Source of the DNA: Gluconobacter japonicus
GTDB lineage: Bacteria; Pseudomonadota; Alphaproteobacteria; Acetobacterales; Acetobacteraceae
Length of the DNA: 48,444 nt
Assembly: GCF_002723975.1 (NCBI RefSeq)
Contig: NZ_BEWO01000017.1
Location: forward strand, 1-48,444
Direction: 5' to 3'
Both the position numbers and the translations under genes were made by a program. This document shows positions 4,729 through 11,976 of this stretch, one piece after another; positions within the stretch are counted from its first letter, which is position 1; each line of letters starts with the position of its first letter. Below the pieces are notes generated by a model, which saw only the letters and a list, made by a program, of their open reading frames with translations, did no database searches and was not told where the DNA came from.

Positions 4729-6033
4729 ATGACGACGCATTCTTCCACAGCGCCAAAAATTCGCGTCGGCATCGACTTCGGCACGACTAACAGCGTTGTG
4801 GTCATTGCAGATGAGCACGGCACGACGCAGCCTGCCGTCTTCAACTTCATCGACAGCCCGTCTTCCGAAACCTGTCGGACCCTGCTCTGCCTCTGGCTCG
4901 ATCAGGATGGGAAAAAGCGCGTTCTTCAGGACGCCATCGGGCTCGATGCGATCGAAGCCTATCTGGACGATCCGGCGGAAAGCCGCCTCATCATGTCCAT
5001 GAAGACCTATCTCGCTCAGGGCTCCTTCCGCGAAACCCGCGTCTTTTCCACCACCATGACGCTTCAGAACCTGATTGCCCGGTTTCTTCGCTCCCTTCTG
5101 GACAAGGCAGGAATCAGCCCGGATCAGGTCAGCGCCACGATTGGTCGCCCCGTGCGTTTTGCCGGTGAACTTGCAGACGACGAACTGGGCGTAAAACGTC
5201 TCAAGGAAAGCTTTGTCGAAGCCGGCTTTGCCGAACCCAATGTTGTCCTTGAACCGGAAGGTGCGGGATGGCGCTTCATGCAGCGTCTCGATGCCCCCGC
5301 GACTGTTCTGGTGGGAGACTTTGGTGGCGGGACCAGTGACTTCTCCGTCATGCGCTTCGACCCACACGGTTCTCCCCGCACAGTCACGCTTGGGCATTCA
5401 GGCGTTGGCATTGCGGGAGACCAGTTCGACTTCCGCATCATAGACAATGTCATCGCCCCGGCTCTTGGACGGGACACGACCTACCGCGTCATGGGTGGGC
5501 AGCCCCTTCCCGTTCCGATCGAATGGTATGCGAGCCTGGGCCGCTGGCACCGCCTGTCCCTGATGCGCACGCCACAGACCCTCCGCAGCATTGAAGATGT
5601 CGCAAAGACAGCATCCGACCCGCAGAAGCTCCGTAATCTGCTGCGTCTGATCGAGGATCAGGAAGGGCAGAACCTCTATCGAGCCATCGGTCAGGCCAAG
5701 ACCGAACTTTCCCGGCAGGACAGCACCGTTCTGCGCTTTGCACACAAAGATCTTAAAATCGAGCAGACAATCACACGTGCCGATTTCGAAAGCTGGATCA
5801 GCCCGGATCTGGATAAGCTGGCCGCCGCTATCGATGACGCACTCGAGCGAACTGGCCTGGGAACAGCCGGGATCGACCGCGTCTTCTTAACGGGCGGAAC
5901 CTCCTTCGTGCCGGCCGTACGTCAACTGTTTATTGATCGCTTCGGGACAGAACGCGTCGACGGAGGCTCGGAGTTCGTCTCCGTTGCCGAAGGCCTGGCA
6001 ATCATTGAAGTAGAAGCAAGCGCCACGGCCTAA
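4729..6033 (+). CDS. yegD: Hsp70-family protein YegD-like
   Basis: 434 residues, close to the ~450 of E. coli YegD. It consists of an actin/Hsp70 ATPase domain only: phosphate-1 loop GIDFGTTNSVV near the N-terminus, phosphate-2 loop GDFGGGTSDFSVM near residue 196, and adenosine motif FLTGGTSFVPAVRQLF near the C-terminus. The substrate-binding domain of DnaK is absent, so it is not a canonical foldase; the cellular role of YegD proteins is poorly defined. It stands alone: an HxlR gene precedes it by about 115 bases and a convergent lipoprotein gene follows. No DnaJ or GrpE partner is adjacent. Confidence 0.88.
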   Translation: MTTHSSTAPKIRVGIDFGTTNSVVVIADEHGTTQPAVFNFIDSPSSETCRTLLCLWLDQDGKKRVLQDAIGLDAIEAYLDDPAESRLIMSMKTYLAQGSFRETRVFSTTMTLQNLIARFLRSLLDKAGISPDQVSATIGRPVRFAGELADDELGVKRLKESFVEAGFAEPNVVLEPEGAGWRFMQRLDAPATVLVGDFGGGTSDFSVMRFDPHGSPRTVTLGHSGVGIAGDQFDFRIIDNVIAPALGRDTTYRVMGGQPLPVPIEWYASLGRWHRLSLMRTPQTLRSIEDVAKTASDPQKLRNLLRLIEDQEGQNLYRAIGQAKTELSRQDSTVLRFAHKDLKIEQTITRADFESWISPDLDKLAAAIDDALERTGLGTAGIDRVFLTGGTSFVPAVRQLFIDRFGTERVDGGSEFVSVAEGLAIIEVEASATA

Positions 6034-6063: not shown

Positions 6064-6888
6064 TCAGCGAGCAGTGGCGGCGCGGACACTTGTAGTGGAG
6101 ACCGTGATGGAAGCTTTCTCCACATGCCCGGTTTCCTGCACACTGCGGCTCGATAGCTCCTGCTGGCGCAAGGCTGCGGCAGTACTCGTATCTCCCTGTG
6201 CCTCGGCGGCCTGAGCCGCCACGAGAAGGGCGCGCCGCATCCCCTCATAATCCTGCGCATCCCGTCTTTTCTGCGTGAGGGACATGGCCTGACCGAAAGC
6301 AAGGGCTGGAGCATGATTGAGCAGTGCCAAACGGGCCGCGAGATCCTGATGATCCAACATCGCGGCAGTCTCTTTCGAAGGCGCCAATAATGCTTCCATC
6401 CGGGCCAACTGTGTTGCGTCTTTCTGATCGGCCGCGCCAAGACCAGCCAGATAAGCCGCCCGGTTCCGGACCTGCACATCCGGTGATTGAAGCGCAACCA
6501 GAGCAGACGCCTCCGATCCCGTCAGATCATGTTGCCGGTACAGGGCTGCACTTCTGACAAGCTCCAGGTCATTGGTCTGGCTATACTGACGAAGTTTCAG
6601 AGCTTTTTCCGTCCGATCCAAAGCCGTCAAGGCATCCGCAGGTTTGTTTTCCTCCAGCAACGCAGTGGCGAGATTGAACCCCGCATCATGAATCTGAGCA
6701 GCATCATCCCGGATCAAGGCACGATCCATGGCAGTTCGATACTGAATTTCGGACTGATCGGGGTGACCAAGTTCGAAAGCGCTCCGACCGGTTTCCATCG
6801 CATTTTCATAACCCTGATCCGGATCAGGGCCTTTGCTGACTGAGGAACATCCGGCCATCAGCAGACACAGAACCATCATGCGCTTCAT
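6064..6888 (-). CDS. TPR-containing lipoprotein, last gene of the Mla-like operon
   Basis: 274 residues. The start at 6888 overlaps the stop of the mlaD-like gene as ATGA. The N-terminus is a lipoprotein signal, MKRMMVLCLLMAGCSS, with lipobox cysteine C14, so the mature protein is probably outer-membrane anchored. The rest is helical with tetratricopeptide-like repeats: YENAMETGRSAFELG, IQYRTAMDRALIRDDAAQIHDAGFNLATALLEENKPADALTALDR, and further pairs up to about residue 240. Other MCE transport systems also have a lipoprotein (PqiC, or MlaA for Mla), but this one is not similar to those by eye. Inference: the periplasmic or outer-membrane docking partner of the MlaD-like protein. A specific family is not recognised. 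Confidence 0.75.
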   Translation of the reverse strand: MKRMMVLCLLMAGCSSVSKGPDPDQGYENAMETGRSAFELGHPDQSEIQYRTAMDRALIRDDAAQIHDAGFNLATALLEENKPADALTALDRTEKALKLRQYSQTNDLELVRSAALYRQHDLTGSEASALVALQSPDVQVRNRAAYLAGLGAADQKDATQLARMEALLAPSKETAAMLDHQDLAARLALLNHAPALAFGQAMSLTQKRRDAQDYEGMRRALLVAAQAAEAQGDTSTAAALRQQELSSRSVQETGHVEKASITVSTTSVRAATAR

Positions 6889-7838
6889 GGACGGACAGCC
6901 TCCGCTGGCAGACGATGAGACGGCGTTTTCTGTGCACTTCCTCCGAGGAGCCACAGGCCCCGCAACTGATCTGTCAGCTTGCGCAGACTGTTTGCACTCG
7001 CTTCCGCCTGTGAAATCAAAGCCGGGATCTGGGCCGTAGCTGCATTGGTATGGGCGATCGTTTCCTGAACCTGCGGCATGCTCTTTTTCAAGGTTGCAGA
7101 CGCAGACCGGGCGTTTTCCATCGTGCCATCAGCCTTGGTCATAACTCCCCCAAGCTGCTTCTCGATCGGCTGAAGACGCGCAATGACCTCGTTCAGATTT
7201 TCCAACGCCTGATTGGCGCGCTGAAGCGTGTCATCCTTGGACAAAAGACCGCCGACAGTGCCCTTGCCTGCCCGCATATCCGTCAGCATGTCGTTGACCT
7301 GCCTGGTGATGGCCTGAACGCTGTCCATGGCAGGGACCAGCTTGTTCCGAACGTCTGTGACAGTCTGGGTGATAACATCCGCCGGGTTGGCCTCCACAGT
7401 CGCGTTCAGAACGGCATAGCCCCAGTCCATGTCCTCGCCTCTCCCCCGCCCCAGTTCGATATAGCTGGCACCAGCAACAACAAAACGGTGCCGGATGACG
7501 GCGGAACTGTCCTGCTTGATGAAGGGGACAAACTGCGGTTCGATATAGCCTTCTGCGTACATGCGCCCTGTGCTGTTCAGGTCCAGATGACGGATTTCAC
7601 CGGCATGAACGCCCATAATTTCGATATCATCGCCAATCGCGAGGCCAGCAACGCCTGTTTCTGGCAAAACGAAATGGATCTTTTTTTCCGGCGTCAGCCA
7701 CTGCTTGAGGAAACCAGCTTCAGCAACGGCAACAGCAAAAAGAATGATGGTCGCAAGAACAAGCAGCCCAACCCACTCATCCGCATAGCGGTTCTGGAAA
7801 AGCGGGCGGGCAGTGTCGGGGCGGCGTACGCGAAACAT
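6885..7838 (-). CDS. mlaD: MlaD-like MCE-domain substrate-binding protein
   Basis: 317 residues from ATG 7838, which overlaps the upstream stop as TGATG; a TTG three bases earlier is less likely. One transmembrane helix (about residues 22-44) is followed by the MCE domain: KKIHFVLPETGVAGLAIGDD, IEIMGVHAGEIRHLDL, then GASYIELGRGRGEDM. The C-terminal ~170 residues are a predicted helical, partly coiled-coil tail. In Mla systems MlaD forms a periplasmic hexamer that binds phospholipids and sits on the MlaE permease; the upstream genes encode that permease and an ATPase-like protein. The long tail resembles other MCE proteins whose helices bridge the periplasm. Strong identification at family level; the exact lipid and direction of transport are unknown. 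Confidence 0.9.
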   Translation of the reverse strand: MFRVRRPDTARPLFQNRYADEWVGLLVLATIILFAVAVAEAGFLKQWLTPEKKIHFVLPETGVAGLAIGDDIEIMGVHAGEIRHLDLNSTGRMYAEGYIEPQFVPFIKQDSSAVIRHRFVVAGASYIELGRGRGEDMDWGYAVLNATVEANPADVITQTVTDVRNKLVPAMDSVQAITRQVNDMLTDMRAGKGTVGGLLSKDDTLQRANQALENLNEVIARLQPIEKQLGGVMTKADGTMENARSASATLKKSMPQVQETIAHTNAATAQIPALISQAEASANSLRKLTDQLRGLWLLGGSAQKTPSHRLPAEAVRP

Positions 7839-8566
7839 CAAGACCCTCGCATCGAAAACAGTCCATCATCGTAAAGACGCAGGCGTATGCTCGCATCCGT
7901 TTCATAGGCCCGCCAACTGGTGTCATCCGGTGCGAGCCAGACAACCGCACAGCCACGATCCCGCGCATCGGTCAGAGCCGACAGAAAAGCGTTCAGAAGG
8001 GGGGGATTGGCGTCCCCCATCGGGTTCTCAAGCAACAGTAAGGACGGCTCCCCCAGGAAGGCCCGTACACAATCCGCACGACAGCGATCCAGTGGAGATA
8101 ACTTCCCCGGAGAAACGACAGGCAGCCCGGGCAGACCAAACTGCATACCGAGTTGAACCGCCCGCTGCATCAGGTGCTCTTCGGGCACGCGGGTATGATA
8201 CAACTGCGGCCAGAGAATGTTCATGTGCGTGCCGTACAGATCGATCCAGCCACCATTGGCTACCATCCGGCCGATACGCCCACGAAGGGCAGCGGCCCGG
8301 CGTTCATCCAGATCAGACCATTCCAGACCCATGCACCGGGCCAGTCCGTCCTCCAGATCAACCAGGCCAACGCACATATCTGCGAACAGACTGGCCTGCT
8401 GCATATCGCGGCATTCAATCAGGGCACAGTCCCCGGGATTCAGGCGCAGATTGTAGCGCACGGAAGCCAACCCACTCCCGTCAAAACGGGGACGCGCGTC
8501 CACCAGTTCGAGAACCGGATCAAGAATGGTCAGTTCAGTGACGGGTGCTTTGCTTTCGTCTGCCAT
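7838..8566 (-). CDS. Degenerate ABC-transporter ATPase (MlaF-position pseudo-ATPase)
   Basis: 242 residues, the size of an MlaF ATPase, lying between mlaE and mlaD with 1 bp and overlapping junctions. The fold is suggested by the pattern RYNLRLNPGDCALIE ... GLVDLEDGLARCMGLEWSDLDE ... LRGRIGRMVANGGW ... LGEPSLLLLENPMGDA ... DRGCAVVWLAPDD. Each catalytic motif is altered: the Walker A place (about 50-58) reads ECRDMQQAS with no GxxGxGK[ST]; the LSGGQ signature is LSPLD (156-160); Walker B ends LLLLEN instead of DE; and the switch histidine is P213. ATP hydrolysis is therefore unlikely, though the frame is open and the gene tightly coupled. It may be structural, regulatory, or partnered by an ATPase encoded elsewhere. 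Function inferred from position and pattern. Confidence 0.7.
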   Translation of the reverse strand: MADESKAPVTELTILDPVLELVDARPRFDGSGLASVRYNLRLNPGDCALIECRDMQQASLFADMCVGLVDLEDGLARCMGLEWSDLDERRAAALRGRIGRMVANGGWIDLYGTHMNILWPQLYHTRVPEEHLMQRAVQLGMQFGLPGLPVVSPGKLSPLDRCRADCVRAFLGEPSLLLLENPMGDANPPLLNAFLSALTDARDRGCAVVWLAPDDTSWRAYETDASIRLRLYDDGLFSMRGS

Positions 8567-8567
8567 A

Positions 8568-9383
8568 TCAGTCCAGCCAGACGCTTAGAACGACGTTGAT
8601 CGTCATGATGGACAGAATGCCACGTGCAAAACCGCGCGGCAAAAGAGAGGCAAGATCATCTTCCGTTGTGGCGTCCATACCGGACAGGCAGGAACACACA
8701 CCGACAGCAAACCCACTAAAAATGAACTTTGCCGGAATGGCAAAATAGTCCACCGGATGCATACTGCTGACAACCTGATCCAGAAAGGCCCAGACCGGCA
8801 TAGTGATGACGTCTTCAACCCGGCAGACAGCATATCCCACCAGCAAGGCTGTCAAACTGAAGATGATCCCCAGCGTAAAGCCACTGATGGTCATCGCAAG
8901 ACTTCGGGGCAGCAGAAAGGCCACGAACGGGTCAATACCCATCCCTGTCAGTACCCGCATCTGACCACCCGTTGTGAGTGTTCCCAGTTCCGTCAGCATC
9001 AACATCCCGGACCGTCCCAGCAGGATGACACCCACAAGAACCGGCGCAATTTCACGGACCATGACAGTTGAGAGAATGGAGCCGGTCATCTGCGCCATAC
9101 CCGCGAAGCCCAGCCAGTAAACCGCCTGAGCCACAATCCCGAACCCGGTCAGGGCCGCAGTGACCAGAACACTCAGCAATCCGCCACCGGTCGCCTGCTG
9201 GAGCGAATGCCAGAACTCTATTCGCACGGTTCTACGCCAGGATGTCGGCGACAGCCCGAGCCGCAACACTCCCCACGCAGCCCCGATGACCATAAGCGTA
9301 AAGCGCATCTGGGCACGCGTAACCCGTCCCAGAGAAGCCAGTGCATTCTGAATTCGGGAAATACGCTCGAAGCGACTTCTCAT
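8568..9383 (-). CDS. mlaE: MlaE-family lipid ABC transporter permease
   Basis: 271 residues. It has the MlaE (permease family) core: FWHSLQQATGGGLLSVLV, then REIAPVLVGVILLGRSG, ELGTLTTGGQMRVLTGMGIDP and FLLPRSLAMTISGFTLG, with about five to six hydrophobic segments and a C-terminal helix. MlaE is the inner-membrane core that works with MlaF and MlaD in phospholipid trafficking. An amphipathic N-terminal segment (RSRFERISRIQNALASLG) precedes the first membrane helix, as in other MlaE proteins. Its ATG overlaps the stop of the upstream sensor gene as ATGA, and its stop is 1 base from the pseudo-ATPase start. A possible oddity is the Gly-Arg-Ser-Gly loop in place of the common AGRVGA. Identification is firm. 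Confidence 0.92.
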   Translation of the reverse strand: MRSRFERISRIQNALASLGRVTRAQMRFTLMVIGAAWGVLRLGLSPTSWRRTVRIEFWHSLQQATGGGLLSVLVTAALTGFGIVAQAVYWLGFAGMAQMTGSILSTVMVREIAPVLVGVILLGRSGMLMLTELGTLTTGGQMRVLTGMGIDPFVAFLLPRSLAMTISGFTLGIIFSLTALLVGYAVCRVEDVITMPVWAFLDQVVSSMHPVDYFAIPAKFIFSGFAVGVCSCLSGMDATTEDDLASLLPRGFARGILSIMTINVVLSVWLD

Positions 9384-11698
9384 CGCCGCCCCGCCAGAAT
9401 GAAGCTACGCGTTACGCCGCTATTGGGCAGATAAAACATCCCGCGTGCACGAAAAAGAAAATGCTCCCGAAGCTGGAGATAAGCCTGCTCGGAAACCTGA
9501 ATTGTTCCCGCATCCGGTGCACTCGCAGCCAGCAACTCGGCAACATTGATGGCTTCACCCCACAGATTGAAAACGGCAGGATCACGGCCCAGCATGGCCG
9601 CCATTACAGGCCCGACGTCAATGCCCACGCGGAAAACCGGATCAATATCCACCGACGCTAGAAGCGACAGACACGCCTCACGGATAGAGACTGCCGCATC
9701 TGCAAGGCGCAATACGGCGTTCAGGTCCGGCTCCTGTGAGCAACCACCCACCAGCACGAGACGGTTGCTGACAACCTGTACGGAAAAAAGCCCCGTCTCC
9801 CGTGAAATACGCTGGATATCCTCACTGAGCGACGACACCACTTTCATCGCTCGCTCGGCGCTATGACGATCCATGGCATAAGGGTCTGCAAATGAAATGA
9901 CCATGACAGGCACCTGCGGATAAATCCCGCTGGGCACGGCTTCATCCTGAACACCGGATGCCGGCGGCAGAAGAAATCCTTCGTCGTAACGCGTGTCTTG
10001 CAGTTGATGGGTTACGCCTGGGCGGGCATCGGTCTGATGATCGCTCTGATCCAGAGCCTGCGAAAAACGCAAAGCCACAACCGACGAAACAATCGCTACG
10101 ATATGTTCCATCGCATCCGCTCTGGAGGGATTTTCCAGCACGATGGCACCCACAGCCTGATGACCACGCATAACGGGATGAAACACCAGCGATGTGGCTT
10201 CAACGGACCTCATGATGATGCGCTGGAAATTCTGGCTGCGCTCATCCTGTCGCGCGTCGTCAATGGACAGGGAATGTCCTTCAAACAAGGCTTCAAACAG
10301 CAGGGCATTTTCACGCTTCGTAATCTCGATGCCCGTACTGTGAACATCCCGGACAGGATCAAAAGCATCCTCACAGAGCAGCCGCTCTCCATCAGGGAGC
10401 AGTCGCCACAGGCTGGCACGACGCGAATTTGTGCGGGCCGCCAGGGCCTCCGTCAGGATCGGGACGTCGTGAGACGCTTCGAACAGATCCGGCGTGCTGG
10501 CAATCTCGTAAAGCGAAGCATTTTCCGCGCGCATCTGCTCACGACCGATTTCAATGCGCCTGCGAAGGCGTTCGATGCGCCGCCCCTGAATGATCAGTCC
10601 CAAAGCCAGCAATGAAGCAAGCCCGACGACCAGCGCTGAAAACCACATATTCTGCCGACGCGCTGTAATGGCAAAGTCCGAGAAATCGTTCTCGGGAGCA
10701 TTCAGCAACAATACCCATCGGCGATGCACGAACGGCAACGCTGTCGCAATGGTGACGTAATTTTTTCCTCGCGCCGCCACAAGGCCCGGACCGGGACCTT
10801 TCACTTTGAAGGTATTCAGGGCGCGGATGAAAACCGGCTGCGTCTTCGGGTCCAGATGCATATTGGCAGGATCAAAGGTCGGCTGCGTTCCGTCATCACC
10901 CGCTGTCTGACCGGCGATGATCTGACTATGCATATCGACGATGACAGCCTTCCCGCTTCGCCCGACCTGAAGGTTACTCAGGAAGGAGGTCAGTCGATTG
11001 AGGGCAATGTTGGTTGCAAAAACAGCCTGATGGCCGTCGCTCGTCTGGAAGGCCATGGAGGCCGTAATGGTGAATTCCCGAGCGGCCAGATAGGCGTAGG
11101 GATCCGTCCAATAGAGGGCCCCTTCTCCGCGCCCGATCCGTTTGATGGCTCCCCGGAACCATGGCCGGACCGTAACATCATATCCTTCCGCCGGATCAAA
11201 TCCTGTCCCGATGGGTTTGCCGCTTTGGTCAACGTAAGTGTGACGATAGACACCATGGCCATTTTCGATCTGGAAATGGGTCTGCTCGTAATCCTTGCCG
11301 TGCCGGGTAACCATCCAGAACTGCTTCTGATCACTGGCCAGATAGAAACTGTCGACCTGCGGCATGTGCGCCAGCATGGAGCGTCCATAGAGCATGAAAG
11401 CGTCTGGCGAAGCGTCCGTGAGTGGCTCACGGAACATATCCTGCGCGATGGCAGCACTGTCTGAAGCAGGAGAAAGATAATTCCTGACTTCTTCCGTCAC
11501 ATATTTCTGCTGGCTTCGCAGCAGATCGCTGGACAGGGAGATCGCTCCCTGACGGGTGGTCCGGTAATTGTGAAGGCTGATGGTAATAATTGCCGCAATA
11601 ACAAGCAGAACGCCAATAATTGGACCTAGAAACTGCAGGACCTTCTGCCGGCTACTGGCAGGACTCCGCGTAGGGTCAACAATCTCAGCGGCTGACAA
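9380..11698 (-). CDS. Membrane sensor: dCache-GAF-class III cyclase-like domain (degenerate)
   Basis: 772 residues. Order: cytoplasmic N-terminus, TM1 (about 21-43), a periplasmic dCache sensor (about 45-345; RPWFRGAI, WTDPYAYLAAREFTITASM), TM2 (about 351-371), a basic helical linker, a GAF domain (about 390-548) and a class III nucleotide cyclase-type domain (about 595-770; VGIDVGPVMAAMLG, LWGEAINVAELLA). In the cyclase domain the first metal Asp is present (FAD, D605), but the second (GD) is S644-N645 and the transition-state Arg (N718+4) is L722, so catalysis is doubtful. The start is TTG 11698: GGAG lies 9 bases upstream and an in-frame TAA just before it excludes longer forms. It is the first gene of the Mla-like operon, so it probably senses an extracytoplasmic signal for lipid transport; this is inference. 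Confidence 0.85.
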   Translation of the reverse strand: MSAAEIVDPTRSPASSRQKVLQFLGPIIGVLLVIAAIITISLHNYRTTRQGAISLSSDLLRSQQKYVTEEVRNYLSPASDSAAIAQDMFREPLTDASPDAFMLYGRSMLAHMPQVDSFYLASDQKQFWMVTRHGKDYEQTHFQIENGHGVYRHTYVDQSGKPIGTGFDPAEGYDVTVRPWFRGAIKRIGRGEGALYWTDPYAYLAAREFTITASMAFQTSDGHQAVFATNIALNRLTSFLSNLQVGRSGKAVIVDMHSQIIAGQTAGDDGTQPTFDPANMHLDPKTQPVFIRALNTFKVKGPGPGLVAARGKNYVTIATALPFVHRRWVLLLNAPENDFSDFAITARRQNMWFSALVVGLASLLALGLIIQGRRIERLRRRIEIGREQMRAENASLYEIASTPDLFEASHDVPILTEALAARTNSRRASLWRLLPDGERLLCEDAFDPVRDVHSTGIEITKRENALLFEALFEGHSLSIDDARQDERSQNFQRIIMRSVEATSLVFHPVMRGHQAVGAIVLENPSRADAMEHIVAIVSSVVALRFSQALDQSDHQTDARPGVTHQLQDTRYDEGFLLPPASGVQDEAVPSGIYPQVPVMVISFADPYAMDRHSAERAMKVVSSLSEDIQRISRETGLFSVQVVSNRLVLVGGCSQEPDLNAVLRLADAAVSIREACLSLLASVDIDPVFRVGIDVGPVMAAMLGRDPAVFNLWGEAINVAELLAASAPDAGTIQVSEQAYLQLREHFLFRARGMFYLPNSGVTRSFILAGRR

Positions 11699-11976
11699 GG
11701 GCTTTTACTCCGGGACGATGGATACTCTGATGTTATTCCCAACATTCAGTAACATGCCAATATCTCTTGCTCCATGATGGATCGCAACCCGCATGTCGGG
11801 TGACAAACGCATGAGACCACAAAATTTTTACTTTTCGGCAATAAAATTTCGTCAATTCCTGACCCTGTACAGAAAGACTATAATCCGTATCATACCGGTC
11901 CAGTTTCACTGCGTCCCATGTGCCACTCAAGGCCTTCCCCGAGCGTGTCACCCTTCAAGAACTCCGGTGCTTCTCC

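Follow-up and report, generated by a model that had tools for sequence, protein, structure and literature searches.

The direction and the energy source of lipid transport by MCE systems are debated. LetAB is an MCE system without an ABC ATPase, actinobacterial Mce operons lack an NBD gene, and, to our knowledge, ABC transporter operons without any working NBD site are rare. PqiABC, as described, likewise pairs an MCE protein with an outer-membrane lipoprotein and does without an ABC ATPase (PMC10897342), and the Mpc system of the Hyphomicrobiales is portrayed as a chimeric Mla-Pqi system believed to span the two membranes (PMC12436622). In the Mla system (MlaFEDB), a coupling helix of the permease MlaE is reported to contact the ATPase MlaF; one account places this helix between TM2 and TM3 (PMC7790496) and another between TM3 and TM4 (PMC8241846).

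The window analyzed here, a 48,444-nucleotide stretch of DNA from Gluconobacter japonicus, carries five head-to-tail genes on the minus strand, flanked by a divergent frame that starts at position 11920 and a convergent frame that ends at position 6033. They encode, in order, a dCache-GAF-cyclase-like protein, an MlaE-like permease, a degenerate ABC ATPase (the pseudo-NBD), an MCE protein, and a TPR lipoprotein (Table 1). Because adjacent frames overlap by at most 4 bases or lie 1 base apart, the arrangement resembles a translationally coupled operon. As in Mla, the permease and the MCE protein score above their Pfam cut-offs (MlaE, 128.8 bits against 22.5; MlaD, 32.1 bits against 25.1) and an NBD homologous to MlaF is encoded between them. 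The first-pass annotation of the window was right to speak of a pseudo-ATPase in the MlaF position. The operon differs from Mla in that its NBD lacks the catalytic motifs, its permease has another coupling-helix segment, and it includes an extra cyclase-like sensor and a TPR lipoprotein. A Pfam search of the five operon proteins gave no match to a STAS domain such as that of MlaB.

Table 1. Positions of the operon genes and of their altered segments in the window
Feature	Position	Strand	Basis
dCache sensor, GAF, and class III cyclase-like protein (operon gene 1), 772 aa, predicted pseudo-cyclase	9380..11698	-	Pfam, PDB homology
MlaE-like permease, 271 aa	8568..9383	-	Pfam MlaE, PDB MlaE chains
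Segment GGQMRVLTG of the permease (residues 139-147), presumed coupling helix	8943..8969	-	Alignment and inference
Degenerate ABC ATPase at the MlaF position (pseudo-NBD), 242 aa	7838..8566	-	Homology, motif loss
Residues 52-59, CRDMQQAS, in place of canonical Walker A GGSGSGKS	8390..8413	-	Alignment
Former signature, residues 156-160, LSPLD	8087..8101	-	Alignment
Former Walker B, residues 176-181, LLLLEN	8024..8041	-	Alignment
Former H-loop His, now Pro213	7928..7930	-	Alignment
MCE (MlaD-domain) protein, long C-terminal region with weak coiled-coil-type matches	6885..7841	-	Pfam
TPR lipoprotein, predicted helical solenoid, lipobox Cys14	6064..6888	-	Model; lipobox by eye

With PqiABC and LetAB the operon shares an MCE protein, and with Pqi also a lipoprotein, but its inner-membrane part is MlaE-like rather than PqiA- or LetA-like and its lipoprotein is predicted to be a TPR solenoid (pLDDT 85.8). 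The start codon of the lipoprotein gene was our choice and its lipobox Cys was judged by eye; the predicted fold resembles TPR proteins such as PilF and NlpI, a resemblance that does not decide the transport mechanism. The actinobacterial Mce loci, whose ATPase is MceG (PMC9947336), also have MlaE-like permeases with no working ATPase encoded alongside, whereas here an NBD has been kept and conserved and yet appears dead. Mpc, which we liken to the operon by description only, is alphaproteobacterial and homologous to Mla and Pqi components as well, but it comes from another order and its abstract is silent on a dead ATPase. Among the open-literature matches listed, a set with few subscription papers and with preprints outside its scope, none described a dead MlaF or the five-gene operon, and an MCE-ABC system with a clade-wide pseudoenzyme NBD appears to be new.

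All five genes occur in the same order and on the same strand in 66 of 70 loci for which flanking sequence was available (20 of the 70 being from Gluconobacter), and matches to MlaE, the NBD, and the MCE protein were present in 70/70, that to the permease being partial in one locus (L042). Two of the exceptions to the five-gene order (L042 and L092) lie on contigs that are short. In two loci from a single genus (L085 and L086), there was no recognizable cyclase gene within ~4 kb upstream, and the other four genes were present. By pseudo-NBD identity, the nearest named loci are those of Gluconobacter frateurii (94%) and of Gluconobacter thailandicus and Gluconobacter cerinus (both 91%). A scan for promoters and terminators found sites no more numerous than in shuffled sequences, and an Rfam search gave no match.

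The pseudo-NBD gene encodes its protein without an internal stop. A Pfam search did not detect an ABC domain in the product, and its NCBIfam matches (among them FtsE, YbbA, LolD, and MlaF) were weak and far under their cut-offs, the score with the MlaF equivalog model being 18.5 bits against a cut-off of 441. Its PDB matches were mostly ABC NBDs, including MlaF, and a profile of 46 orthologues matched NBDs in the PDB with E values down to 1.9e-20. When profiles of the pseudo-NBD family and of canonical MlaF, built independently from separate alignments, were compared with hhalign, they aligned over 201 columns with a probability of 99, an E value of 2.1e-18, and the motifs in register. With the profiles matching in register, the window protein is an ABC NBD by descent, and its catalytic motifs are truly gone. 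In the PDB ranking, NBDs of the DppD type and those of MacB and LolD scored above MlaF; the comparison indicates homology to MlaF, and the ancestor may have been MlaF or another ABC NBD. The predicted structure, modeled from the window and related loci that were all from Gluconobacter, had a pLDDT of 37.8, and its secondary structure was set aside as evidence. The Pfam ABC_tran model reached 24 of the 46 orthologues at an E value of 0.01 and missed the window protein, so automatic annotation may overlook the family.

An alignment of 72 distinct orthologues with 2 MlaF proteins located the losses. Compared with an intact MlaF encoded in its own genome, the pseudo-NBD has CRDMQQAS for GGSGSGKS, LSPLD for LSGGM, LLLLENP for ILFFDEP, and LAPD for ITHD, and it also lacks the Asp of the D-loop and the Gln of the Q-loop. 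The position of the Walker A Lys is occupied by Ala58, that of the Walker B Asp by Glu180, and that of the catalytic Glu by Asn181. From the letters of the window, the first-pass annotation had proposed the loss of Walker A at about residues 50-58, the replacement of LSGGQ by LSPLD, a Walker B motif ending in LLLLEN with loss of its acidic pair, and a Pro213 in place of the switch His. The alignment bore out the replacement of the signature (residues 156-160) and of the His. Walker A is indeed lost, but its equivalent is residues 52-59, 1 to 2 residues from where it had been placed; LLLLEN does correspond to Walker B (residues 176-181), but within the lost acidic pair the Asp has been replaced by another acid and the catalytic Glu by Asn. 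Since E. coli MlaF with the Walker A or Walker B mutation K47A or E170Q is reported to fail to complement (PMC7367683), residues lost from the pseudo-NBD are essential in the canonical system. Judged from its motifs, the pseudo-NBD has very probably lost ATP hydrolysis.

The losses are clade-wide. Neither the Walker A Lys, the Walker B Asp-Glu pair, nor the signature SGG is present in any of 82 distinct orthologues (0/82 for each); the D-loop Asp survives in 1/82, the H-loop His in 1/82 (L087), and the Q-loop Gln in 16/82. The P-loop pattern GxxxxGK[ST] was absent from all 82, realignment recovered no intact P-loop, and none of the 82 provided an intact relative of the operon that could be an evolutionary intermediate. 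The simplest reading of these sequences is that the motif loss is older than the sampled clade.

Some of the replacing residues are themselves conserved. The last position of the signature, Gln or Met in canonical proteins, is Asp in 78/82 orthologues, the Walker B Asp position is Glu in 79/82, the first Gly position of Walker A is Cys in 45/82, and the former P-loop reads ECRD without exception in 21 Gluconobacter sequences. The near-fixed acids in the former Walker B and signature motifs, together with the invariant ECRD and the frequent Cys, would fit an altered pocket that binds nucleotide or some other ligand as a switch and not as fuel. However, no known nucleotide motif is present, five other Gluconobacter sequences (L008 and L024-L027) have ESKD or ECPD at this site, and from one genus to another the stretch differs widely; we regard such a ligand switch as quite improbable.

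We estimated selection on the operon from Gluconobacter pairs by the Nei-Gojobori method, counting pairs with dS between 0.05 and 1. The median dN/dS of the pseudo-NBD was 0.070 (range, 0.006 to 0.110; 70 of 276 pairs), compared with 0.044 for intact MlaF of the same genomes (102 of 276 pairs). For the other genes of the operon, the medians were 0.032 (permease; 63 of 253 pairs), 0.040 (MCE protein; 80 of 276), 0.053 (cyclase-like protein; 61 of 253), and 0.131 (lipoprotein; 62 of 210), the last two genes being clipped at the ends of loci. Constraint on the pseudo-NBD is somewhat weaker than on MlaF, but the gene is far from neutral, and a value indicative of purifying rather than neutral evolution, together with the uninterrupted frame and the conserved operon, sustains the earlier judgment that the intact frame is not a pseudogene. 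We therefore rejected a decaying pseudogene, a sequencing error or frameshift, or a misaligned intact P-loop as explanations for the motif losses. Nothing about the window gene favors them, the one truncated copy found elsewhere being that of genome G021; with a dN/dS of 0.07, the same losses shared by 82 orthologues, and profiles in register, they are almost certainly wrong.

We took the segment TDQIDALTT of canonical MlaE as the coupling helix, its placement resting on alignment and inference, and compared it with the corresponding segment of the pseudo-operon permeases, leaving out permeases shorter than 200 aa. The canonical set comprised 32 MlaE proteins, 2 from the window genome and the best match from each of 30 genomes, and is thus biased to strong matches. 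At segment position 2, these proteins have Asp (24), Glu (5), or Asn (3), an acidic residue in 29/32, and at position 5 they have Asp in 31/32. Because two solved MlaE proteins carry Ser at position 5, only the acid at position 2 can be called general. The window permease reads GGQMRVLTG where a canonical MlaE of the same genome reads TDQIDALTT, so that it has GGQMR instead of TDQID and none of the acidic residues of the presumed coupling segment. The difference recurs across the operon: among 70 pseudo-operon permeases, position 2 is Gly in 67 and position 5 is Arg or Lys in 63. The altered segment is itself conserved, which hints at a partner different from canonical MlaF, the simplest candidate being the pseudo-NBD.

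Such a segment speaks against a simple borrowing of canonical MlaF, and this bears on the possibility that canonical MlaF powers the permease in trans, the pseudo-NBD being an assembly factor or an inhibitor that competes for the coupling helix. A search of the window genome for further intact MlaF proteins, which the first-pass annotation had suggested as a check, did find two, each adjoining a further MlaE. Canonical-grade MlaE was present in 384 of the 385 genomes surveyed from the order (here, as in the surveys of the pseudo-NBD described below, at most seven first-look candidates were scored per genome, so that distant members may escape), and in 177 of 178 pseudo-NBD carriers (178 of 179, G766 having been left out). 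The sole exception, G021, carries its pseudo-NBD and permease in truncated form too, which counts in favor of powering in trans, and MceG, reported as one ATPase serving both Mce1 and Mce4 (PMC9947336), offers a precedent. On the other side, the presumed docking segment has lost its acid (67/70) and gained a positive charge (63/70), as expected if MlaF misfits, MlaF adjoins canonical MlaE in 31 of the 32 canonical loci, where we checked for it, and G021 is one case of gene loss only. In all 31 of these MlaF proteins, Walker A, the signature, and Walker B are intact. We found no carrier without any canonical Mla among the 178, G021 holding only fragments of MlaE; because nearly all carriers hold canonical MlaE, co-occurrence cannot separate a self-sufficient complex from MlaF borrowing. 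Weighing these points, we consider that powering in trans is unlikely.

The genome of G021 is 2.0 Mb, and its pseudo-NBD and permease are present only as fragments. Its canonical MlaE is split into two pieces, and both MlaE systems look eroded together (G021:C1:301923-302637, near L199, and G021:C1:1491819-1492364).

A further way to retain ATP hydrolysis would be a mixed dimer, in which the pseudo-NBD and an active MlaF sit together on the permease as in asymmetric ABC transporters. Asymmetric transporters in which one site has degenerated are a familiar class, and there too selection keeps an NBD without catalytic residues. In those transporters, however, one composite site stays canonical; to form such a site, Walker A and Walker B from one NBD must combine with the signature from its partner. 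Both halves are gone from the pseudo-NBDs (the Lys and the Walker B pair as well as the SGG, 0/82 in each case) and their operon has no active NBD, so that a mixed dimer would be left without a canonical site. We therefore hold the mixed dimer to be very unlikely and favor a dedicated complex with the pseudo-NBD as its clamp or regulator.

The first gene of the operon gives dCache_1, GAF, and Guanylate_cyc matches that are all above the Pfam cut-offs, and its cyclase domain shows homology to adenylate cyclases of known structure. We aligned 67 cyclase-like sequences, leaving out proteins shorter than 600 aa, and located by alignment with solved cyclases the residues that we take to be the two metal-binding Asp residues, the transition-state Asn and Arg, and the substrate-binding Asp. 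The full set of both metal Asp residues, Asn, and Arg occurred in 0/67. The Arg was retained in 2/67, the second metal Asp in 4/67, the Asn in 21/67, and the first metal Asp in 46/67, and the substrate-binding Asp was retained in none. Gene 1 would thus be a second predicted pseudoenzyme of the operon, with a cyclase domain that looks dead, and because full catalytic sets are missing from the NBD as well as from the cyclase, both nucleotide enzymes of the operon look dead. The clade-wide extent of the losses, the altered permease segment, and the dead-looking cyclase, all read from the sequences, go beyond what the first-pass annotation had noted.

On balance, we think it probable that the conserved pseudo-ATPase serves a dedicated MCE lipid-transport complex as a non-hydrolyzing subunit with a structural or regulatory role. 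The pseudo-NBD would dock on its own permease and hold or gate the channel, and the transporter would not be run on ATP hydrolyzed by the pseudo-NBD. The dCache-GAF-pseudocyclase protein, as a membrane sensor, may set the open or closed state, and lipid might flow along its gradient through the MCE tunnel or be driven by some other force, as in MCE systems such as PqiABC that do without an ABC ATPase. The three options offered by the first-pass annotation (another energy source, a trans-acting ATPase, or passive lipid flow) are each compatible with the sequences. A bolder form of this proposal, which we put forward tentatively and hold to be possible but rather doubtful, is that ABC-type MCE transporters have abandoned ATP throughout a whole clade and that the dead NBD and the dead cyclase make up a sensor-controlled clamp on the MlaE channel, allowing lipid to pass from membrane to membrane with no ATP hydrolyzed by the complex.

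In acetic acid bacteria, then, a Mla-type transporter whose apparently dead motor is kept intact under selection, beside an apparently dead signaling enzyme, probably works in some other way. A MlaE-MCE operon that is under selection and has no ATPase sites offers a natural test of whether a MlaE channel can work without ATP, and it could reveal which residues of the NBD and of the coupling helix are needed only for coupling to ATP. The genus Gluconobacter is used industrially and is amenable to culture and modification.

Profile searches found the pseudo-NBD in 179 of 395 genomes and 34 of 84 genera of its order, which we take to be the Acetobacterales, and carriers include genomes of merely 1.5 to 2 Mb. 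Outside the order, it was found in a small number of genomes from two further alphaproteobacterial families. A sample of the class yielded it in 2 of 380 genomes outside its own family; around these outside carriers its distribution is patchy (5/17 genomes of the order of f37 and 3/39 of the family of f60). In a sample of the phylum, 6 of 398 genomes carried it, all of them carriers found previously.

A tree of 66 pseudo-NBDs and 31 canonical MlaF proteins, from which 16 near-duplicates had been removed and in which MlaF was the only other ABC family, placed the pseudo-NBDs in one clade on a long branch with an ultrafast bootstrap of 100. In this tree, the pseudo-NBDs of the two other families nest within the diversity of the home order. 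Transfer is therefore likely.
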